Under the pieces are notes generated by a model that was given only the letters and a program-made list of their open reading frames with translations, was not told the DNA's origin and ran no database searches. A stretch of DNA of 64,000 nt from Flammeovirga sp. SJP92 (lineage in GTDB: Bacteria > Bacteroidota > Bacteroidia > Cytophagales > Flammeovirgaceae): the NCBI RefSeq assembly GCF_001583495.1, contig NZ_LQAQ01000020.1, forward strand, positions 1-64,000, in the 5' to 3' direction. Position numbers and translations under genes: made by a program. This document shows, piece by piece, positions 12,330-22,005 of this stretch (its first letter is position 1; each line of letters begins with the position of its first letter).

Positions 12330-14087
12330 ATGAGATTCTCTCTTAAACTATATATTTATCTAATTCCTGTTTTTTTATTGCTTTCTAATGAAGCTTTTTC
12401 TCAATGGATGAAAGCGCAGGTGAATCATGACGTATTTATGCGTGATAGTCATGGACCTAATGGACATGTGATGATGACCTTAAAAAACGGGAGAAACTTA
12501 TTGGCACTTCCTATTGACAGTAACGAGTCTTATATACGTGTTTGGGATTATCAGACGGGAAAGCGAGGCTTTGTGTATAAAAAATACCTGACCTTGTATG
12601 AGATTCTGCCTAGGGTAGAGTTGAAAGAGCTTTCCAATCATGGCACGCTGAAACGTGGGGGAACGACCTTGCACTTGGAAAATCAGTTTAAGAAGGATAT
12701 TAATTTTGAATTGGATCAGATTCCGTATCAGTTACAGCCTTATGAGGAAATCACTTTGAGGATTCGTGAGGGGGAACATGGTATTTGGATCAGCCGGGAT
12801 GGTGCGTTTCCTTTTTGGGGAAGTTTGACGCTGGCCGACAGTGCGGAATATGTGCTAAAAATCAATGAAACGGAAGAGGTTTTGGTAAGTGAACTGTATC
12901 CTATTTTATCGCATCAGGATACGGTGCTGACAGAGTATTATTCTGTAGACACGGTAAATGTCACCCCTAAAGTGAGGGTAGATACGGCGAGGATTGTCAA
13001 CAATAAACACCCTCAGGATTTGGAGGAATCGAAATCCAAAATTGGAATCAGAGGATATGTAAAATTAAATGCTATTTATGATTTCAATGGGCTTTCGGAT
13101 GTGGACCGTTTTGTGCCGGTTGAAATTCCTGTTGGTGATGAGCGAAATACCATCGACAGAGGTTTTTATATGGGAGCAAGACAGTCACGTTTGGCGTTTT
13201 ATTCTAATATCAAAGCGAAAACGGGCTATCTGAAAATCTATATTGAAGCAGATTTTGCGGGGGGAAGTACTATTCAGATGCTTTTCCGATTGAGGCAGGC
13301 TTATGCGGAATACGGTTTCCTTACCATCGGACAAACGTGGACCACTTTCGCCAACCTTGAAGCAATTCCTTTGACGGTAGACCGAGAAGGACCGAACAGT
13401 TCTATTGCCATTCGCCAAGGGATGGTCCGGTGGGAAAAGAAAGTGGGATATACGGACAATGAATTTGGTGTGGCTATTGAAACGCCCACTACCGCTTTTT
13501 CGGACTCCATTGCTGTAGATCAACGACAGAAATATCCTGATATTAGTTCCCGTTATAAGGTCAAATATGACAAAGGGCAGGTACAACTTTCTGGCCTGTT
13601 CAGAATCATTTCCCATACAGATATTAACACCAATCATGTCACCAACACGGCCGGTTATGGCATTATGGTGAGTGGTAAACAGTACATCGAAAACAAAGAC
13701 AATATCCTGTATTTTCAAGCGGTATATGGAAAAGGCATCAGCAGATATGTGAGAGCATTTCGAAATTATTCTATGGACGCTTTTGTGAATCCTGCCGATA
13801 ACAGCGTTTTTATTCCTCAAACGTCCGGTGGATATCTTTCATTTGAACACCATTGGTCGGAAAAGCTTTTCAGCAACATTACAGGTGGTGTGACTTGGTT
13901 GGAAAATGCAGAATGGCAAGCGGAAGACAGCTATAAAAGTAGTTACTACGGCAGTATCAATAGCTTTTGGTTCGCCTTCGATCGTATGCAATTAGGGGTT
14001 GGATATATTTATGGAATCCGAAGAAATAAAAACGATGTGCAAGGCTACGCTTCTCGGTTCCAAATGTACATTAGATACGATATTTAA
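12330..14087 (+). CDS. DcaP-like outer-membrane porin with SH3-like N-terminus (first paralog)
   Basis: A 585-aa exported protein. The signal peptide ends near SNEAFSQ. An SH3b-like domain follows (about 30-85, MKAQVNHDVFMRDSH and VWDYQTGKRGFVYKKYL), then a spacer region, then a DcaP-type beta-barrel from about residue 240 (IRGYVKLNAIYDF, GARQSRLAFYS, LRQAYAEYG, TIGQTWTTFANLEA). The barrel ends in an aromatic-rich strand (FQMYIRYDI). DcaP porins pass small anionic molecules. It overlaps the start of a similar gene by one base, so the two form an operon and arose by tandem duplication. Confidence 0.85.
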   Translation: MRFSLKLYIYLIPVFLLLSNEAFSQWMKAQVNHDVFMRDSHGPNGHVMMTLKNGRNLLALPIDSNESYIRVWDYQTGKRGFVYKKYLTLYEILPRVELKELSNHGTLKRGGTTLHLENQFKKDINFELDQIPYQLQPYEEITLRIREGEHGIWISRDGAFPFWGSLTLADSAEYVLKINETEEVLVSELYPILSHQDTVLTEYYSVDTVNVTPKVRVDTARIVNNKHPQDLEESKSKIGIRGYVKLNAIYDFNGLSDVDRFVPVEIPVGDERNTIDRGFYMGARQSRLAFYSNIKAKTGYLKIYIEADFAGGSTIQMLFRLRQAYAEYGFLTIGQTWTTFANLEAIPLTVDREGPNSSIAIRQGMVRWEKKVGYTDNEFGVAIETPTTAFSDSIAVDQRQKYPDISSRYKVKYDKGQVQLSGLFRIISHTDINTNHVTNTAGYGIMVSGKQYIENKDNILYFQAVYGKGISRYVRAFRNYSMDAFVNPADNSVFIPQTSGGYLSFEHHWSEKLFSNITGGVTWLENAEWQAEDSYKSSYYGSINSFWFAFDRMQLGVGYIYGIRRNKNDVQGYASRFQMYIRYDI

Positions 14088-15853
14088 TGATGACCATGAA
14101 GCAGTTTTCATCCCCTACATATCGTCTTTTCATCACTCTTTTAATGGTTTTCATCCATCAAAATACCTTCGGGCAATGGATGCGTTCTACCGTTGAATAT
14201 TCTACACATCTCCGTGATCATCGTTCCATCAACAGCCCTGCCTTGATGCATTTGGAAAAAGGTAGAGACATTTTGGCCCTGCCCTTACACGAGGAAAGTC
14301 AATTTGTAAAAGTGTGGGATTATCAAACTGGAAAAAGAGGTTTTGTATTAAGCAAAGAGCTAGTGTACATTGATACCCTCGCCAAGGCTGACTTATTTGT
14401 TCCCAACTTCCAAGGACATATTCATCGAAAAGAAGCATTGCTTCATATCGAAAACATTGAAGAATATTCCATCATTGTAGAGATAGATCAATACCCTTAT
14501 GAGATTGCTCCTTACAAAGAAATCAAATTGGCTTTACCCGAAGGGCAACATGGCATTTGGGCTTACAGAGATGGTGCTTTACCGTTTTGGGGTGATATCG
14601 AATTAAAAGACAGTTCTGAGTATATCATCCAAATCAAAACAACGGAAGATGAAGATGTGATTATGGCGGATATTCAACCCGTAGAGCATGTGGTAGATAC
14701 CGTAATTGTGGAAAATCGCTATGAAAAGACATTGACTTTCCTTCCAAAAATAAAGATTGATACCACCAAAATTGTAGACAATAAACACCCTCAGGATCTT
14801 GAAATGGCTCAAACCCCTTTTGACATTCGAGGCTACGTCAAACTCAATGGTTTATATGATTTCCATGGTCTGGCTAGAACAGGCGGTTTTCCACCCTACG
14901 ACATTCCAGTGGGTGAAGATAATATTCTGAATCCCGGTTTTTACTTAAGTGCCCGTCAATCAAGATTGGGTATTTCTTCCAATATTCTCACGGACCAAGG
15001 CTACATCAAACTTTTTATTGAACTTGATTTTGTTGGTGGAGGAAATGCATTGGATTACGTTCGACTGAGGCATGCTTATGTCCAATACGGCTACCTCACC
15101 GTTGGGCAAACCTGGACCACTTTCACGGACCTCTACTCTACCCCACTGACAGTTGATAATGAAGGTCCCAGCAGTTCGTCTTCCACCAGACAAGGTGTAA
15201 TTCGATACGAAAAGAAAGTAGGTAAAAGCGACAATGAGTTTGCAATAAGTTTAGAGACACCTACCCGCAATTTCTCTGATACAATTGCCGTTGATCAAAG
15301 ACAATTATGGCCTGATGTTGCTTCTAGATATAAAATCACATTACCTAGAGGTCAGATTCAAGCGGCAGGACTTTTCAGAGTATTATCACAACACAATCCC
15401 GATGATCAAGTAATTTCTAAAATCGGTTATGGATTGATGATTTCGGGTAAAAATTCTTTCAAAGACAAACATAAAATCTACTATCAGATCATTGGAGGCC
15501 GTGGCGTCACCCGATACATTTCAGCCTTCTCTTCTTATAACCTTGATGCAGTAGCAAGCCCTACCAATGATATTTATGTACCGTTTTCTGCTGGTGGTTA
15601 TTTCACCTACGAATATTATTTTAAACCTAATTTATTCCTCAACTTCGTCAATGGCGTCTCTTGGATCGATAATGCCGAGTGGCAACCCGATCATACTTTT
15701 GAGAAAAGTTATTACACCAGTGCCAACCTCTTTTGGTTTCCTTTTGACCGTTGCAGAACGGGGTTAAGTATTGTTCAAGGAGAAAGATTCAATAAAGATG
15801 GGCAAAGAGGCAGTGCTTGGCGATTTCAAATGTATATTCGATACGATATTTAA
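14087..15853 (+). CDS. DcaP-like outer-membrane porin with SH3-like N-terminus (second paralog)
   Basis: A 588-aa paralog of the preceding gene with the same order: signal peptide (ends near HQNTFGQ), SH3b-like part (VWDYQTGKRGFVLSKEL), linker, and DcaP-like barrel (IRGYVKLNGLYDF, SARQSRLGIS, LRHAYVQYG, TVGQTWTTFTDLYS, ending FQMYIRYDI). Its start overlaps the stop of the first copy (TAATG). Several ATG codons are possible at the start (14087, 14090, 14096). The two copies differ throughout, so the duplication is old. Their different barrels may prefer different solutes. Confidence 0.85.
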   Translation: MMTMKQFSSPTYRLFITLLMVFIHQNTFGQWMRSTVEYSTHLRDHRSINSPALMHLEKGRDILALPLHEESQFVKVWDYQTGKRGFVLSKELVYIDTLAKADLFVPNFQGHIHRKEALLHIENIEEYSIIVEIDQYPYEIAPYKEIKLALPEGQHGIWAYRDGALPFWGDIELKDSSEYIIQIKTTEDEDVIMADIQPVEHVVDTVIVENRYEKTLTFLPKIKIDTTKIVDNKHPQDLEMAQTPFDIRGYVKLNGLYDFHGLARTGGFPPYDIPVGEDNILNPGFYLSARQSRLGISSNILTDQGYIKLFIELDFVGGGNALDYVRLRHAYVQYGYLTVGQTWTTFTDLYSTPLTVDNEGPSSSSSTRQGVIRYEKKVGKSDNEFAISLETPTRNFSDTIAVDQRQLWPDVASRYKITLPRGQIQAAGLFRVLSQHNPDDQVISKIGYGLMISGKNSFKDKHKIYYQIIGGRGVTRYISAFSSYNLDAVASPTNDIYVPFSAGGYFTYEYYFKPNLFLNFVNGVSWIDNAEWQPDHTFEKSYYTSANLFWFPFDRCRTGLSIVQGERFNKDGQRGSAWRFQMYIRYDI

Positions 15854-15896: not shown

Positions 15897-16062
15897 TTGT
15901 TAGAAATCAGGAGATTTCTAGTGATCTTTTAGGCACGAATGACGCTGTCGCTTAACATCCGCGCCAGTGGTTCTGATTTCCTATTCCTAGCGCAAATGTT
16001 ATGCAGAGCGTCATTTGTGCTTTAGTGATGAAAAGAAGTCTCTGACTTCTAGTAAAACATTT
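15897..16062. repeat. Paired, inverted copies of the AAGCG hairpin repeat
   Basis: AGAAATCAGGAGATTTCT (a hairpin) is followed by CACGAATGACGCTGTCGCTTAAC, and then by a second, inverted unit (GCAAATGTTATGCAGAGCGTC, ending GAAGTCTCTGACTTC). The double arrangement also occurs at 45086-45236. It fills the gap between the porins and the sensor kinase. Confidence 0.7.
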
Positions 16063-16095
16063 CTACATTAGTGTTATAATTAGTTGAATGAAAGC

Positions 16096-17781
16096 ATGAT
16101 GAAAATCAAAACCACTTTTACCGGTCTCTTTGGAGCAATCATTTTACTCCTCCTTATCCTTTCCCTGCTTTTTCTCGCTTTATTGAGCAACAGAAAAGAG
16201 TTTGGTAAAATGCAGTTCAATCGTCATGAAAGTATAATCGTCAAAAATGAGATTGAAGACAGTAGCCGGGAACTGCATCAACTGTTGTTGCATTACATTA
16301 CAAGTGAAGATGAAAAATACCACCAAGAGTATAACAAGCTAAAAAATAACATTCAACTCATTAGCATTGATACGTTGCGATTGGATCAAACGGAAGAAAA
16401 AAAGATCAAGAAAGGGCTTCAAATGTTAGACCTTCAACTCGAAAAAGAAGCACAAATCCTCCAGCATTATCAGCAATATAATCGTGATTCAGCTTTTCAA
16501 TATTTATATCAAGAAAGTTATTTGCAACTGATCACTACACTTCATCGAGAGTTGGATCAATTTGAAAGTGATATGATACGAAAAACCCAAAATGTTTGGG
16601 AGTTGAACCGAGCAGAAGGCTTCCAATATTTTTATTCCTCCCTTACATTTTTGTTGTTCATTCTGGTCTTTTCATGTATCTCATTTTATCTGATCCGAAA
16701 AAGATTACAGCGACAAGAAGTCATCGATTTTCGTTTCAAGGAAAGTGTTGAAGATCTCAAAAAAGTCAAACAGGAACTAGAGAAAAGTGACGAGCGTTTC
16801 ACATTAGCCGTGGAAGGCACCGGACTTTTGATATGGGATTTTGATACACAAACTAAGATCATCAATTGGTTTCCCAAAGGCTGTAGCTTGTTTGATTATC
16901 CTTATGAAGAGATCATTCCAACGCTGGATTTTCTAAGAGGACATATACATAAAGATGATCTGGAGATTTTACAAAAACAGATCGAACATCATAAAGCCAC
17001 AAGAGAAAAGATTTATTTTGATGCCCGTTTTTATACGAAAGATAAAACGCTGAGATGGTACAGATGTCACGGTGCTCCCGTATATCAGCAAGGGGAACTC
17101 GCACGCATTGTCGGTACTTTTAATGATATCACCGAACAACTCCATCAAGATGAAAAAATAGTGGATGCTATTCTCGAAACAGAAGACAAAGAAAGGAGTC
17201 GTATCTCTCGTGAGATTCACGACAATCTGCAACAAACCATGTCAACGGCCATTCTCAACCTTGAAAAAGTAAGAGCAGAAGCGGTGATTACGAATGAAGA
17301 AGAGGAAAAGCATTTTAATATTGCTTATAGCTATCTCAAAAAAGCCATTCAAGAAAGCCGAACTTTGGCACACAACTTAATGCCAAAAGTGGTCAGTGCT
17401 AATGGTTTGGTATCGGCAATTCAAGCTTTAATTTCTGCTTTGCAAGGCACCACCTCTACGGAAATTCATTTTTATGAAAATTTAGGGGAGGAAAGAGTGA
17501 AACTTTCTGTAGAGATGACGTTGTATAGAATTGTACAGGAAAGTATCAATAATATGATCAAACATGCCGAAGCTTCTCAATGCACCATACAGTTGTTGAA
17601 GCATCCTGATATGATTGTATTAACGATTGAAGATGACGGCGTGGGGTTTGATTTGAATACCAAAGTAGATTCTTTTGGGCTCAATAGTATGAAAACAAGG
17701 GCCAATGCTGTTGGTGCCTATTTCCAGATCTCATCACAAAAAACGAAAGGAACAGAAATCATTTTTGAACTTGGAATATAA
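16096..17781 (+). CDS. NarL-type sensor histidine kinase with PAS domain
   Basis: A membrane kinase of about 561 aa. There is an N-terminal membrane helix (about 9-31), an extracytoplasmic helical region of about 150 residues, a second helix near 190-205, a short coiled coil, a PAS/PAC domain (about 235-345), a HisKA_3 domain with the phospho-acceptor His in SREIHDNLQQ, and a HATPase (ESINNMIKHAEAS, IEDDGVGFD, GLNSMKTRA). I start at the ATG at 16096; a TTG at 16084 is possible. It is followed after one base by its response regulator. The signal is unknown; nearby units with a shared promoter box are likely targets. Confidence 0.9.
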   Translation: MMKIKTTFTGLFGAIILLLLILSLLFLALLSNRKEFGKMQFNRHESIIVKNEIEDSSRELHQLLLHYITSEDEKYHQEYNKLKNNIQLISIDTLRLDQTEEKKIKKGLQMLDLQLEKEAQILQHYQQYNRDSAFQYLYQESYLQLITTLHRELDQFESDMIRKTQNVWELNRAEGFQYFYSSLTFLLFILVFSCISFYLIRKRLQRQEVIDFRFKESVEDLKKVKQELEKSDERFTLAVEGTGLLIWDFDTQTKIINWFPKGCSLFDYPYEEIIPTLDFLRGHIHKDDLEILQKQIEHHKATREKIYFDARFYTKDKTLRWYRCHGAPVYQQGELARIVGTFNDITEQLHQDEKIVDAILETEDKERSRISREIHDNLQQTMSTAILNLEKVRAEAVITNEEEEKHFNIAYSYLKKAIQESRTLAHNLMPKVVSANGLVSAIQALISALQGTTSTEIHFYENLGEERVKLSVEMTLYRIVQESINNMIKHAEASQCTIQLLKHPDMIVLTIEDDGVGFDLNTKVDSFGLNSMKTRANAVGAYFQISSQKTKGTEIIFELGI

Positions 17782-17782
17782 T

Positions 17783-18439
17783 ATGAATACACCTATCAAA
17801 TTAATATTGGTGGATGATCACATCATGATCAGAGAGGGATTGAAATCGTTCTTGCATCAAGACCAATTTCTAATTGTAGGAGAAGCTAACAACGGTCAGG
17901 AGGCATTAGAACTTCTGAAGGAAAACGAAGTCAATGTAGTGGTGACGGATATTATGATGCCCGAAATGGACGGCATTGAATTATCGAAGGCCATCACAAG
18001 AGAATATCCTGATGTGCAGGTACTCGCTCTCACTATGATGAATGAAAATTACAACATCAAGAAAATGCTGAGTGCTGGTGCAAAAGGTTATGTACTGAAA
18101 GACTGTACGCAAGACGATTTGAGAAATGCTATCAAAACTGTTGCTCAAGGAAAACCTTTTTATTCTTCTGAAGTCACCAATATCATTATGGAAGGACTTT
18201 CCAGCATTCCTTCTTCTAAAAAAAGAGTGTCTTCTGAAATCCCATTGACAGGAAGAGAAAAAGAAATACTCCACTTGATCTGTAAGGAATATTCTAATCA
18301 AGAAATTGCCAACGAACTCTTTATTTCTACTAGAACAGTGGAAACTCACAAGAGAAATCTTTTGGAGAAAACAGGTGTGAAGAACGTAGCCGGCCTTGTT
18401 TTATATGCTATTGAACGAAAACTTTTTGATGATTTGTAA
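17783..18439 (+). CDS. NarL/LuxR-type response regulator
   Basis: A 218-aa regulator. The receiver domain shows the acidic pair LVDDH, the phospho-acceptor Asp in VTDIMMPEMDG and a conserved Lys in YVLKDC. The C-terminal LuxR HTH has LTGREKEILHLI and ISTRTVETHKRNLLEKTGV. The ATG at 17783 is one base after the kinase stop; longer starts inside the kinase gene add no domain. It forms a two-component pair with the upstream kinase. Confidence 0.93.
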   Translation: MNTPIKLILVDDHIMIREGLKSFLHQDQFLIVGEANNGQEALELLKENEVNVVVTDIMMPEMDGIELSKAITREYPDVQVLALTMMNENYNIKKMLSAGAKGYVLKDCTQDDLRNAIKTVAQGKPFYSSEVTNIIMEGLSSIPSSKKRVSSEIPLTGREKEILHLICKEYSNQEIANELFISTRTVETHKRNLLEKTGVKNVAGLVLYAIERKLFDDL

Positions 18440-18460
18440 AAAAGAAGGTGAGTTTTTCAA

Positions 18461-18592
18461 GCACCATAGTTAAAACTGAAGGAGATAAACAAAACCTTTC
18501 CAAAACTGAAGTCTTGAAGGTTCAAAGCGGAAACATCACTTTAGTGTTGTTAGAGTCAATATCACCTGCCTATGACTTCAGTCATGGTGCAC
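18461..18592 (+). repeat. Four-hairpin REP/MITE-like element, copy 2
   Basis: Begins GCACCATAGTTAAAACTG and ends GTCATGGTGC. It has the same internal hairpins as copy 1 (CTGAAGTCTTG, ACTTTAGTGTT, ATGACTTCAGTCAT) but has lost the 3' half of the first hairpin, so this copy looks decayed. Confidence 0.75.
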
Positions 18593-18614
18593 AATAGAGC
18601 TACAATTTTTAAAT

Positions 18615-18686
18615 CTAAGGGAAACACGCAAAAATCTAAACTCCGGTTTATACAGACCTATGCCTCAGCACTGTACTCTACCTTTG
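18615..18686 (+). promoter_or_regulatory. Promoter with shared upstream box (A)
   Basis: The -7 box is TACCTTTG (18679-18686), which fits TAnnTTTG. The upstream box GGGAAACACGCAAAAATC, followed by TAAACTCC, begins with CTAAGGG exactly 64 bases before the -7 box. The same box at the same distance precedes the next two units. No clear -33 TTTG is seen, so an activator is likely; the neighbouring NarL-type regulator is the obvious candidate. Confidence 0.7.
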
Positions 18687-18744
18687 TAATATCAAAAATG
18701 AAAAATCGGTTTTAAATATTACAAACAATACAAATAGTACAGAC

Positions 18745-18891
18745 ATGAAAAAGTTCAAATTATTCGTTTTAGTGATCTCATTGTTTAGCCTTTCAACAAT
18801 CACATCTTGTAATAACCAAGATGAGGAATTAGGACCAATCACACCGGAGCATCCGATCGTTGATCCTATTCCTACTCCATTCTCAGAATAA
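18745..18891 (+). CDS. Small lipoprotein, 48 aa
   Basis: A 48-aa ORF starting MKKFKLFVLVISLFSL and carrying a lipobox, TITSC followed by NN. The mature peptide is about 29 residues, acidic and proline-rich (GPITPEHPIVDPIPTPF). It has its own promoter with a -7 box 59 bases upstream and a hairpin terminator 24 bases downstream, so it is a complete transcription unit. Function is unknown. It is placed between a two-component system and a sulfatase and shares their promoter box. Confidence 0.75.
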   Translation: MKKFKLFVLVISLFSLSTITSCNNQDEELGPITPEHPIVDPIPTPFSE

Positions 18892-18915
18892 ATTATAAGG
18901 ATAGAAAATGAAATG

Positions 18916-18947
18916 AAGCCTTCATTACAATTGTAGTGAGGGCTTTT
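18916..18947 (+). terminator. Terminator of the small lipoprotein gene
   Basis: AAGCCTTCATTAC pairs with GTAGTGAGGGCTT around AATT and is followed by TTTT. Its stem resembles the terminator at 19330-19366. Confidence 0.85.
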
Positions 18948-18996
18948 CTGCGTTTAGATTTATCCAAACAAAAAAGAGAAGTAAATTAAATTACCA

Positions 18997-19067
18997 CTGG
19001 CGCGAATGTTAAGCGAAAGCGACATTCGTGCTTTTCAGATCATCAGAAATCTCCCGATTTCTAAATA
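18997..19067. repeat. Copy of the AAGCG hairpin repeat family
   Basis: CACTGGCGCGAATGTTAAGCG, then ACATTCGTGC, and downstream the small hairpin AGAAATCTCCCGATTTCT. It lies between the lipoprotein unit and the next promoter. Confidence 0.65.
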
Positions 19068-19099
19068 TTACGAACATTGAAAACATAGTCTACATCACT

Positions 19100-19171
19100 C
19101 TAAGGGAAACACGCAAAAATCACTTATACCGAAATTACAGAACCAACTCCACTACACGCCTATTACTTTTG
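19100..19171 (+). promoter_or_regulatory. Promoter with shared upstream box (B)
   Basis: A 22-base stretch from CTAAGGG to AAAATC is identical to the one in promoter A. TACAGA also matches at the same offset. The -7 box TACTTTTG (19164-19171) is again 64 bases from CTAAGGG. It drives a short unit ending at the terminator near 19366. Confidence 0.7.
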
Positions 19172-19177
19172 CATCAG

Positions 19178-19366
19178 TAATAAAGAAAAAGCAGTAATTG
19201 AAAACAGTAACTTAATGGTTTTAGTAAGCGAAATCTTCAAGATGCTAAACTTATAAACCGTTTAGACCTGAGTGGTATTACTCGATTCCCATCAACACCC
19301 AGGTTCTAGACATCATAATTAATTGGTTTAAGCCTTCCCTACCTCTGTAGAGAAGGCTTTTTTTTA
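19178..19366 (+). ncRNA. Putative short transcript (small RNA or leader-peptide unit)
   Basis: The stretch between promoter B and a strong terminator has no ORF longer than 13 codons (MVLVSEIFKMLNL from 19215). About 190 nt would be transcribed. The likeliest reading is a regulatory small RNA or an mRNA for a very short peptide, induced with the lipoprotein and sulfatase. The exact 5' end is estimated from the -7 box. Confidence 0.45.
19330..19366 (+). terminator. Strong terminator of the short unit
   Basis: AAGCCTTC (with CC) pairs with GAGAAGGCTT around a TACCTCTGTA loop and is followed by eight T. No gene precedes it within 300 bases other than the 13-codon ORF. Confidence 0.9.
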
Positions 19367-19379
19367 AACTTCAAATCAA

Positions 19380-19451
19380 CTGTGTGATTCACGTAGATTT
19401 CTAAACTCCTGTTTTCCCTCTCAATTCTCCGCCCTGTACACTTTAGTTTTG
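19380..19451 (+). promoter_or_regulatory. Promoter of the sulfatase gene with shared upstream box (C)
   Basis: The 31 bases from 19380 align without gaps to promoter A: TCACG is kept in the first half, and TCTAAACTCC is identical. The -7 box TAGTTTTG (19444-19451) is again 64 bases downstream and 25 bases before the sulfatase ATG. Confidence 0.7.
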
Positions 19452-19475
19452 TATCACAATCAATCAGAAAGAATT

Positions 19476-21002
19476 ATGAAAAAATATCTATTTCTTGTCT
19501 TGCTTTTCGCTTTAAGTGAAATGACTTATGCGGACAAAAAGCCAAACATTATCATGATCATGACAGACGATGTGGCACCACAAGATTTGTCGATCTATCA
19601 TAGAGGATTAGGAGCCGTAAATACTCCAAATATAGATAAGATTGGTAACGATGGAATGATGCTAACGGATTATTACGCACAACAAAGTTGTACTGCAGGA
19701 AGGTCTTCTTTTCTTACGGGTCAGTATCCGATCAGAACAGGATTGACTTCTGTTGGACAACCAGGTTCAAAACTAGGACTTAATGCAAAAGATGTAACAC
19801 TAGGAGAACTATTACAAGATCAAGGGTATGCTACGGCACACTTTGGCAAAAGTCACTTGGGTGACCGAAACGAACATTTACCTACCGTTCACGGATTTGA
19901 TGAGTTTTATGGTTTCCTATATCATTTAAATATGATGGATATGCCAGAACAACCTGAGTTTCCTGATGACCCCAACTTTGTTGGACGACCACGTAATGTG
20001 ATCTACAGTAAAGCCACTACTACTGATGATACTACCGTAGATCCTCGTTGGGGAAAAGTGGGTAAACAAGTCATTGAAGACCGAGGTGAACTAGGCAAAC
20101 TCAGACAAGAAACATTTGATGACGAGGTATTGGAATATTCTCAAAAATGGTTGACAGAAAAGAAAAAAGCAGACGAAAACTTTTTCTTATTCTTCAACCC
20201 ATCAAGAATGCACCAAGAAATCTATGTCAGTGACAAGTGGAGAGGAAAAAGTGGACATAGCACCTACGCAGATGGTCTTTTACACCTTGACTATCTAGTA
20301 GGTGAACTCCTAAACACGTTGGAGGAAATTGGTGAAGCTGACAACACAATTGTGATGTTTACTGCTGACAATGGTGTCAACTTAGCACACTGGCCTAGTG
20401 GTGGTACGGCTTCTTTCAGAGGGGAAAAAGGAACTACTTGGGACGGTGGTTTCAGAGTACCAATGTTAGTAAAATGGCCTAAAAATATTCCTGCAGGAAC
20501 ATGGAGCGGTGAATTATTTACAGCAGAAGACTGGGTACCTACTTTAATGGCGATGATTGGAGAAGACAACATCAAAGAAGAACTTTTAGAAGGTAAAGAG
20601 GTCAACGGAACAGAGTTTAAGGTACATATTGATGGTTATAATCAGATGGATGTCCTTACTCAAAACGGAAAATCGAAAAGACGAGAATTTTTCTTCTATG
20701 CCGAAAACGAACTGCAAGCCATACGTGTAGATCAATGGAAAATCTACCTTGCCGTGAAGGATGAGTGGATAAAAGACTCTGAAAAATTGCCAGGAGGTAT
20801 GATTGTGAACTTAAAGTTAGATCCTTATGAAAGATCTATTGATACTCCAGGGCATTTCTTATGGATGAAAGAGAAAACATGGGTGTTGCCTACAATTGCT
20901 CCTCCATTAAAAGCTTTTGCAGAAAGTATGAAGGATTTCCCTCCAAGACAGAAAGGAGCAGGAATTGGAGCGGCTGCCATCTTAAATCAACTGAATAAGT
21001 AG
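19476..21002 (+). CDS. Secreted type I (FGly) sulfatase
   Basis: A 508-aa arylsulfatase-type enzyme with signal peptide (MKKYLFLVLLFALSEMTYA). The metal-binding start IIMIMTDDVAPQ is present and the formylglycine motif is CTAGR at about residue 72, within SCTAGRSSFLTG. Other sulfatase marks are HFGKSHLG near 130 and MFTADNG near 295. It should remove sulfate esters from marine polysaccharides, or from aryl or glycolipid sulfates, in the periplasm. Maturation needs an anaerobic-type or FGE enzyme elsewhere. It is the last of three units with the same promoter box, so it is probably controlled by the nearby two-component pair. Confidence 0.9.
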   Translation: MKKYLFLVLLFALSEMTYADKKPNIIMIMTDDVAPQDLSIYHRGLGAVNTPNIDKIGNDGMMLTDYYAQQSCTAGRSSFLTGQYPIRTGLTSVGQPGSKLGLNAKDVTLGELLQDQGYATAHFGKSHLGDRNEHLPTVHGFDEFYGFLYHLNMMDMPEQPEFPDDPNFVGRPRNVIYSKATTTDDTTVDPRWGKVGKQVIEDRGELGKLRQETFDDEVLEYSQKWLTEKKKADENFFLFFNPSRMHQEIYVSDKWRGKSGHSTYADGLLHLDYLVGELLNTLEEIGEADNTIVMFTADNGVNLAHWPSGGTASFRGEKGTTWDGGFRVPMLVKWPKNIPAGTWSGELFTAEDWVPTLMAMIGEDNIKEELLEGKEVNGTEFKVHIDGYNQMDVLTQNGKSKRREFFFYAENELQAIRVDQWKIYLAVKDEWIKDSEKLPGGMIVNLKLDPYERSIDTPGHFLWMKEKTWVLPTIAPPLKAFAESMKDFPPRQKGAGIGAAAILNQLNK

Positions 21003-21108
21003 TATTTTATATAAATAAGGAAAAAGGATGTCGATAAAGACATCAACTTAGTTTAGGGTTAAAACCGATGTAAATGATGTAAGCCGAGTGTATTTTATAC
21101 TTGGCTTA

Positions 21109-21492
21109 CTATAATTTTATTTCAAACCTTTCCATCATTCTTTTGATATTACTATCAGGTACATTATGAATTGATTGCCCTCCATGTCTGTTTTCTACAA
21201 TCAAAGAAGAAACTTGATAACCGTACTTTTCAGCCATAGAATAGTAATTTTTCATTTCATCTTCAGTAGTAAAAGTATTGGAAACTACAATCAGTTCCTG
21301 GTTTCTAGACATACAGAGTTTCACCATTTCTTCACATTGTTTGTGGGCAAAAGTGAGTTTTTTAGGATCAAACTGATATTCTCCGTTATCATTGATCATA
21401 AAGTCATCTGCCTCAATAGAACCGCCCATTGCTTGAGCAACTGTTGTCTTTCCTGCACCGGGTAAACCTCTTAGTAATATCAATTTCTTCAT
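21109..21492 (-). CDS. Small P-loop ATPase/kinase (AAA_33, polynucleotide-kinase-like)
   Basis: A 127-aa protein starting with Walker A, LLRGLPGAGKTTVAQ. The rest (SIEADDFM, HKQCEEMVKLCMSRNQELIVVSNTF) follows the short kinase-like proteins related to NEDD4-binding protein 2 and T4 polynucleotide kinase. The substrate is unknown. It is monocistronic, convergent with the sulfatase gene. Confidence 0.75.
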   Translation of the reverse strand: MKKLILLRGLPGAGKTTVAQAMGGSIEADDFMINDNGEYQFDPKKLTFAHKQCEEMVKLCMSRNQELIVVSNTFTTEDEMKNYYSMAEKYGYQVSSLIVENRHGGQSIHNVPDSNIKRMMERFEIKL

Positions 21493-21587
21493 TTGTTAAC
21501 AAAAATAAATAAGAGTTGTATTCAATTTTTAAAGATAAGCAGTAACTTTATATCAGAACTACATCAAAATAAACTTATACCATTTGA

Positions 21588-21650
21588 ATTATTGTTTTGC
21601 GATTACTTCCCTACAAAATTTTTAAATAGAACGGCTATTACACTTTTTGC
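21588..21650. repeat. Remnant of the TIR-bearing 164-bp element
   Basis: TTATTGTTTTGCGATTACTTCC matches the centre of the full elements at 29137, 43089 and 61002, continuing as a diverged AAAATTTTTAAATAGAACGGC. The ends are not recognisable, so this is a decayed fragment. Confidence 0.6.
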
Positions 21651-21747
21651 AGATGTATTCAACATAAACAAACCATAATCAGTAATAAGTTATTTCTGAT
21701 GGAGAACTTAGAAACTAGATTTTTAATGATTACTTCCAAAACAACTA

Positions 21748-22005
21748 ATGGTACGCCTTCAACATATTACCTTTAACAAATTAAGCTTAATCCAAAAAGC
21801 AGAAATCGTCCAGTACTTTTCAGACTTCCTTACCTCCATGTACAAGACCGGTAAAAAATTTGAACTTTATAATTATGACGGTGCCTATATACAGGTCAAT
21901 TATAAGGAAGGGAATAGTATGGAAAACGAAATAGAATCGATCTATGAAATTGATAAGATATCACAATACTGCCCCTCAATTGACTGGAAAAAAATATTGA
22001 AATAA
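21748..22005 (+). CDS. Hypothetical protein, 85 aa
   Basis: An 85-residue protein with no signal peptide. It starts MVRLQHITFNKLSLIQK and ends with IDWKKILK; a few aromatic and acidic residues suggest a small soluble fold. No family is recognised. A perfect terminator follows immediately, which supports a real gene. Confidence 0.6.
   Translation: MVRLQHITFNKLSLIQKAEIVQYFSDFLTSMYKTGKKFELYNYDGAYIQVNYKEGNSMENEIESIYEIDKISQYCPSIDWKKILK

Follow-up and report, generated by a model that had tools for sequence, protein, structure and literature searches.

Three neighbouring promoters (A, B and C) in a stretch of DNA from the marine bacterium Flammeovirga sp. SJP92 each carry two tandem palindromes at fixed distances from a -7 box, the distal palindrome starting 64 nt and the proximal one 38 nt before it. 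The stretch analysed, referred to here as the window, is 64,000 nucleotides long (contig NZ_LQAQ01000020.1, positions 1 to 64,000). The promoters follow the genes of a two-component system, TCS1, and precede a small lipoprotein, a probable small RNA (unit B) and a sulfatase. Judged from sequence comparison, the phosphorylated TCS1 regulator probably binds each of A, B and C in the form of two dimers, with joint activation of the three units. The -7 box concerned, TAnnTTTG, is the established one of Bacteroidota. The genes and promoter elements of the locus are as follows.

16096-17781, plus strand: TCS1 histidine kinase (PAS, HisKA_3, HATPase_c), from Pfam, with orthologs in 7 other Flammeovirga genomes
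17783-18439, plus strand: TCS1 NarL/LuxR-type response regulator (Response_reg + GerE), from Pfam; nearest structures VraR and NarL
18615-18631, plus strand: promoter A distal palindrome CTAAGGGAAACACGCAA, from pattern scan and matrix scoring
18641-18657, plus strand: promoter A proximal weak palindrome CTCCGGTTTATACAGAC, offset +26
18679-18686, plus strand: promoter A -7 box TACCTTTG
18745-18891, plus strand: 48-aa small lipoprotein, found as orthologs in 8 of the 9 genomes when the own one is counted
18916-18945, plus strand: likely unit A terminator, an inverted repeat followed by a short T-run, from palindrome search (the terminator scan did not call it)
19100-19116, plus strand: promoter B distal palindrome CTAAGGGAAACACGCAA, from pattern scan and matrix scoring
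19126-19142, plus strand: promoter B proximal weak palindrome ATACCGAAATTACAGAA, offset +26
19164-19171, plus strand: promoter B -7 box TACTTTTG
19176-19371, plus strand: unit B, probable small RNA with approximate ends, from fold and conservation in 4 genomes
19380-19396, plus strand: promoter C distal palindrome CTGTGTGATTCACGTAG, from pattern scan and matrix scoring
19406-19422, plus strand: promoter C proximal weak palindrome CTCCTGTTTTCCCTCTC, offset +26
19444-19451, plus strand: promoter C -7 box TAGTTTTG
19476-21002, plus strand: sulfatase (PF00884), from Pfam; nearest solved sequence 7aj0, an arylsulfatase

An earlier, sequence-only reading of this DNA had reported an upstream box exactly 64 nt before TAnnTTTG at all three promoters, and this offset was confirmed (box starts at 18615, 19100 and 19380, TAnnTTTG at 18679, 19164 and 19444). 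The identity it had described between boxes A and B is real, with a length of 23 nt (18614-18636 and 19099-19121) and not 22, and TCTAAACTCC is indeed common to boxes A and C, in register. It had noticed neither the weaker second palindrome nor the palindromic nature of the box itself, a 17-bp inverted repeat, CTAmGkG-www-CACGTAG, which is perfect in G008 (CTACGTGATTCACGTAG), imperfect in A and B, and clearer in box C and the relatives. The 20-nt box CTAAGGGAAACACGCAAAAA was found twice with up to 3 mismatches, against 0.02 expected per shuffled window.

The genome search for the box at fixed spacing, proposed by the same reading, used the inverted repeat, N48 and TAnnTTTG with up to 3 mismatches on 8.49 Mb and gave 5 matches, against 2 for the reversed control. 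Boxes A, B and C matched with 1 mismatch and the other two with 3; one of these two, C93:690362, was later read as a TCS3 promoter. Without the promoter spacing the palindrome is not rare, and it is not over-represented in this genome (9 rows at 7 places, reversed control 20); those 9 rows include boxes A, B and C and one TCS2 site. A genus-wide scan of 9 genomes, again with up to 3 mismatches, gave 37 matches and a reversed control of 20, for which mismatches were not listed. Nineteen of the 37 lie at the TCS1 locus in 8 genomes, each with at most 2 mismatches, and 2 lie at TCS2 kinase promoters (2 mismatches); the 16 others have 3 mismatches, and at least 4 of them were later read as TCS3 or TCS4 promoters. 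TAnnTTTG was present at +64 with at least 5 of 6 letters in 19/19 boxes of 8 genomes (exact in 16/19), compared with a background of 0.85% of positions in the same intergenic regions; the 19 boxes are not independent, 12 of them coming from four close genomes.

The distance from the regulator stop codon to the box start ranges from 1 to 175 nt among the Flammeovirga TCS1 loci. Between the regulator and box A a repeat element is found at 18500-18597, which has at least 39 matching places in its own genome, itself included (40 of 62 candidates were scored). In G004 the stretch holding this element is missing. The variable gap together with the repeat element indicates that the edge of the module is close to the palindrome itself.

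For the second palindrome, offsets from 17 to 47 were scored in 22 promoters, using a matrix of the palindrome derived from the distal sites. Offset +26 was the sole outlier, with a weighted mean of -1.85 compared with -17.5 or lower at the 30 other offsets, and it ranked best in 20 of the 22 promoters. Its score was reached in 0 of 2000 permutations, where orthologs within one clade were permuted together. Proximal sites are highly degenerate; the majority score below zero and so are weak by sequence. The 64 nt is thus a compound of 26 nt from distal to proximal site and another 38 nt from there to the -7 box. The sequence-only reading had taken the upstream site to be fixed in helical phase, which is not supported, as related systems have their two palindromes between 22 and 27 nt apart, a spread of about half a turn. 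Constant across these systems is the 38 nt between the proximal palindrome and the -7 box, so that it is the place of the proximal site that is conserved and not the phase between the two sites. The sigma-A box of Flavobacterium psychrophilum is given at -12 to -5 in PMC9723704; with the box at these positions, which rest on the start sites of another genus, the site centres would fall at about -68 (distal) and -42 (proximal), the proximal site covering about -50 to -34.

Pfam assigns the TCS1 regulator a receiver and a GerE (LuxR-type) DNA-binding domain (PF00072 and PF00196 above cut-off), and the kinase encoded by the adjacent gene has PF07730 and PF02518 above cut-off. None of the 25 NCBIfam matches listed, out of 112, reaches its cut-off. 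The lipoprotein, which the earlier reading had proposed as a unit of the regulon, is a real gene: against G004 and G003 its dN is 0.11 and its dS 1.18-1.35, giving a dN/dS of about 0.09 that is rough, dS being above 1. It has no Pfam match and none among the NCBIfam matches listed. Orthologs in the 7 other Flammeovirga genomes are 72-97% identical for the regulator and 77-97% for the sulfatase. A search for the kinase in 58 genomes, the own one among them, found full-length orthologs in the own genome and in 7/8 other Flammeovirga. Kinase, regulator, lipoprotein and sulfatase are syntenic in 8/9 Flammeovirga genomes. The ninth, G002, has no full-length kinase ortholog, no lipoprotein and 0 promoter matches; its best regulator is 67% identical and corresponds to its TCS2, and it has no sulfatase above 46% identity. 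These results support the proposal of a small local regulon that has a common site and adjoins the genes of a HisKA_3 kinase and a NarL/LuxR-type regulator.

Two candidates for further members were rejected. No box was found upstream of the TCS1 kinase, which speaks against its autoregulation via the box. Upstream of that kinase, at 12330-15853, lie two tandem DcaP-type porins that are 47% identical, and within the stretches examined porins of this type adjoin TCS1 in 5/8 TCS1-bearing genomes. As regulon members they were dismissed, the window scan giving no box near them and the stretches examined of G004, G001 and G006 containing none of these porins.

Paralogous systems were found to use the same geometry to a varying extent. 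The TCS2 regulators (RR2) are 64-71% identical to that of TCS1 (RR1), and TCS2 adjoins a DUF3124 protein and a Na/H exchanger. Its kinase promoter has the palindrome 64 nt before TAnnTTTA in G000 (the own genome), G004 and G005, which makes 3 out of 7 examined TCS2 loci. At the DUF3124 promoter paired palindromes are seen by eye with no TAnnTTTG at the expected place. The TCS2 target promoters (L150:8387-8660, counterparts in L151-L156) likewise show palindromes 20-25 nt apart, by eye, and no TAnnTTTG at 38 nt; this may mean another promoter type or another role.

TCS3 has a Reg_prop kinase and a regulator 54-56% identical, and adjoins the nearest sulfatase paralog. Palindromes like TTAGGTA-www-TACCTAA were found at 64 nt in TCS3 loci of eight genomes, in a scan that required a box at +64. 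The own genome has six TCS3 promoters of the 64-nt geometry within 20 kb. Five of them stand ahead of genes for two proteins that match no Pfam family, of 252 aa (outer-membrane-like by eye) and 153 aa, for a hydrophobic peptide of 35 aa, for an M48 peptidase and for the sulfatase; the sixth promoter precedes a 65-aa frame and then an ATPase gene. This ATPase we take to be MoxR-like. The promoter ahead of the 35-aa peptide (C93:690433, in L239) is followed, after the peptide, by a terminator-like stem seen by eye, an arrangement that echoes the tiny lipoprotein of TCS1. In G003, G004 and G005, TCS4 carries TAAGGG-AAA-CCCTA at 64 nt; in the own genome no such site was found within 554 nt upstream of its regulator.

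The unbiased test of the spacing was a scan of 1.65 Mb of the own genome with a subfamily motif at up to 1 mismatch. It gave 10 occurrences at a distance of 64, against a mean of 1.05 elsewhere, a maximum of 6 at the other distances (at 36) and a reversed control of 0 at 64. This motif was written after inspection of TCS1-TCS3, and the scan therefore tests the spacing and not the motif. Nine of the 10 belong to TCS1, TCS2 or TCS3, and C93:330431 looks like chance; box C is absent from the 10, having more mismatches to the subfamily motif.

A further system, TCS5 (L371:8498-8740, on C15 in the own genome; L379-L386), has a tandem-palindrome promoter directly behind a NarL-type regulator in 9/9 Flammeovirga. 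Its distances are 22 (between sites) and 38 in 9/9 genomes, with a further loose box in G002 and G007. At distant regulator loci eight distinct palindromes (eleven readings), one of them the own TCS5, were picked by hand, and in 6 of the 8 a -7-like box follows the best second site at exactly 38 nt. The inter-site distances of these six are 22, 24, 25, 25, 26 and 27, and two of the six boxes end in A. For the other two palindromes the boxes are loose and stand elsewhere, at 24 and 71 nt counted from the best second site, or there is no box. Left out of the hand-picked set were L361:12447 (1 mismatch, no box in the letters examined) and L362:8080 (a 64-nt match with a poor palindrome, read as chance).

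A systematic two-site scan takes in the hand-picked loci without any choice. In 12 loci from ten genomes of other genera it gave 5 sites at 38 nt against a mean of 0.14 (maximum 2), and in the own genome 7 at 38 nt against a mean of 0.43 (maximum 4, at 64); the reversed control was 0 in both cases. The five sites of other genera come from 4 of the ten genomes (G010, G012, G128 and G184), and the scan gave no 38-nt site in the loci of G140, G082, G148, G130, G009 and G011.

Extension of the rule to NarL-type regulators at large was rejected: 79 loci (17 from other Bacteroidota and 62 from other records), with regulators about 26-44% identical, gave no 38-nt signal. The 17 loci of other Bacteroidota had no 64-nt excess either, and no 64-nt site was seen at L366-L368, which come from three further families of this order. 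A rule for a generic 7-3-7 palindrome (6/7 pairs) at 64 nt is not supported either, with 43 occurrences in 1.65 Mb of the own genome against a mean of 37.4 (sd 6.5, maximum 53). Such a motif-free scan is insensitive, since in a looser form at a distance of 64 it gave 17 against 16.25 on four known Flammeovirga loci. The lack of a motif-free peak at 64 and of a 38-nt signal with low-similarity regulators means that the rule seems to belong to this subfamily.

Besides TCS1, a tandem palindrome lies 1-48 nt after the regulator ORF at four loci, those of G012, G010, TCS5 and G128. From such promoters of other genera behind the regulator gene, and from the synteny, the joint absence in G002 and the geometry at the paralogs, we infer that it is the TCS1 regulator which acts at A, B and C. 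The recognition helix has a Glu in TCS1, TCS2 and TCS4, with operators CTAmGkG and TAAGGG, and an Asp in TCS3 and the G010 and G012 regulators, with TAGGTA/TAGGCG-like operators; TCS5 has an Asp as well. This split would broadly match the two operator types, as a correlation; against a simple Glu/Asp code, a G128 regulator has a Glu and adjoins a TAGGTG palindrome. The regulator tree contains 22 of 31 rows, the 9 left out being loci on the other strand, and several of its joins are weak.

What is observed directly is the palindromes with their two spacings, the conservation of these, the syntenic gene order and the absence of genes and promoters alike from G002. In the mechanism we propose, the TCS1 kinase would phosphorylate the regulator (17783-18439), and a regulator dimer would first occupy the strong distal palindrome centred at about -68. 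A second dimer would then join cooperatively at the weak proximal palindrome, centred at about -42, where it would stand in for the -33 element and contact RNA polymerase with the Bacteroidota housekeeping sigma factor at TAnnTTTG. We infer the binding by the TCS1 regulator, the binding order, activation rather than repression, and the start sites. Two-dimer activation shared by the three promoters would switch on the tiny lipoprotein, the probable small RNA and the sulfatase together.

The palindromes of TCS1 and TCS2 are so alike that cross-binding is possible, and A, B and C might be bound mainly by the TCS2 regulator, or by both, the TCS1 genes being only part of the circuit. Box C and the G007 and G008 boxes are almost letter-for-letter the same as TCS2 sites such as TTACGTGATTCACGTAA, and the identity of RR2 to RR1 (64-71%) points the same way, but G002 retains TCS2 without TCS1 and without any TCS1-type promoter, and the CTAAGGG/CACGCA half-sites of boxes A and B were not seen at the TCS2 loci examined. 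We regard this circuit as quite improbable. The likeness of A and B could also come from nothing but a recent promoter duplication, with a spacing that was inherited and not selected, as might be suggested by their 23 identical nucleotides and by the finding of unit B in four close genomes only. This we consider very improbable indeed: the 64 persists in box C and in the G001, G006, G007 and G008 boxes despite their different letters, the spacers of A and C agree at only 2-7 of 21 positions (five genomes compared), and the paralogous systems retain the 64 spacing. Activation of all three units by the TCS1 regulator is the reading that we prefer.

The nature of unit B, which the sequence-only reading had put forward as a putative small RNA, involves two further features.

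19200-19257, plus strand: 58-nt unit B core, identical in 4/4 genomes, which holds a 13-codon ORF (19215-19256)
19330-19365, plus strand: likely unit B terminator, a stem with T-run, from a predicted fold kept in 4 genomes (the terminator scan did not call it)

Unit B behaves like an RNA gene and is probably a small RNA by its sequence; what complicates the claim is the 13-codon ORF in the core and the restriction to 4 genomes. The fold has a z of -3.19, with 1 of 200 shuffles as stable. A long match was found in 4/9 genomes, the four closest only, and two further 30-nt matches in G003 and G005 were read as chance. Alongside the invariant core, third positions differ by 13-37% in the sulfatase and by 18-37% in the regulator. 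No Rfam family reached its gathering score in window positions 16000-22000 or in 3 of the 9 TCS5 loci. Unit B could instead be the message of a 13-residue peptide and not an RNA regulator, since the ORF is intact in 4/4 genomes within the invariant core. We find this unlikely, because its 13 codons show no third-position change though neighbouring genes differ by 13-44% at third positions (a range excluding the lipoprotein in G005, which is identical), and the invariance runs 15 nt past the ORF on the 5' side. In addition, no ATG ORF of 10 or more codons precedes the terminator in the own genome's TCS5 transcript.

For unit B as a small RNA, the TCS5 unit appears to provide support at the sequence level. 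It measures 122-158 nt from -7 box to T-run in 9 genomes and contains an RNA-like stretch with a 33-nt core, AGATAGCACAATAGTTCATCAGTTACAGAAT, in which one column differs, in G007 only. In its terminator stem, inspection by eye shows one or more pairs that change in a compensating way in G007, and its fold energy is unremarkable, with a mononucleotide z of -1.0 to -2.7. The units behind the G012 and G128 regulators contain only short ATG ORFs, of up to 32 and 21 codons, which precede terminator-like sequences (by eye).

A wider proposal, which we hold tentatively and rate a little short of an even chance, is that Flammeovirga and some relatives possess a subfamily of NarL-type regulators with a weak dimer site 38 nt before TAnnTTTG, replacing the -33 element, and a strong site 22-27 nt upstream of it. 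TCS1, TCS5 and one regulator each in G012 and G128 would drive a dedicated small RNA, located right behind the regulator gene in TCS5, G012 and G128, and the two-component system with its own RNA would be a recurring unit.

The TCS1 regulator has the two-domain architecture of the VraR, NarL and DevR structures, aligned nearly end to end by sequence similarity only. The DevR palindrome differs from that of TCS1. DevR (DosR) of Mycobacterium tuberculosis, of the NarL subfamily, is described in PMC3029386 as binding cooperatively at a primary and a weak secondary site, the promoter-proximal site overlapping the -35 element. A NarL-subfamily regulator with a strong site and an adjacent weak one (here weak by sequence) is common to both; the differences are another sigma factor and -7 box, and here a proximal site 38 nt from the -7 box at the sites found. 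UhpA is a NarL/FixJ-type regulator with a HisKA_3-type kinase, like TCS1, and in E. coli it has strong upstream and weak downstream sites at uhpT, whose promoter is of sigma-70 type. This promoter is also helped by CRP-cAMP, as mentioned in PMC5352689. In the CiaRH system of streptococci the strongest CiaR promoters drive small RNAs (csRNAs), and CiaR binds the direct repeat TTTAAG-N5-TTTAAG, according to PMC8186281. It resembles TCS1 as a two-component system driving a small RNA, and differs in that its site is a direct repeat and not a palindrome. CiaR is not known as a NarL-type regulator.

We propose, from these comparisons, that the mechanism may be of the DevR kind, and that what would set it apart is the fixed 38-nt placement on a TAnnTTTG promoter, common to five paralogous systems. 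According to PMC7366714, no -33 motif was identified in Flavobacterium johnsoniae, which makes the action of activators at such promoters a real question. The 38-nt rule offers a concrete and testable geometry for the contact between response regulator and RNA polymerase in Bacteroidota, makes regulons predictable from sequence, and directs attention to new small RNAs linked with two-component systems. In titles and abstract openings of the open-licence literature, no description of the 38-nt rule was found.

Two minor observations concern the region upstream of box B. A second repeat-like hairpin is present at 19000-19060 and is missing at that place in G004. A 25-nt stretch of the lipoprotein leader (18710-18734) recurs at 19059-19083 with 80% identity, and may be left over from the duplication by which promoter B arose.
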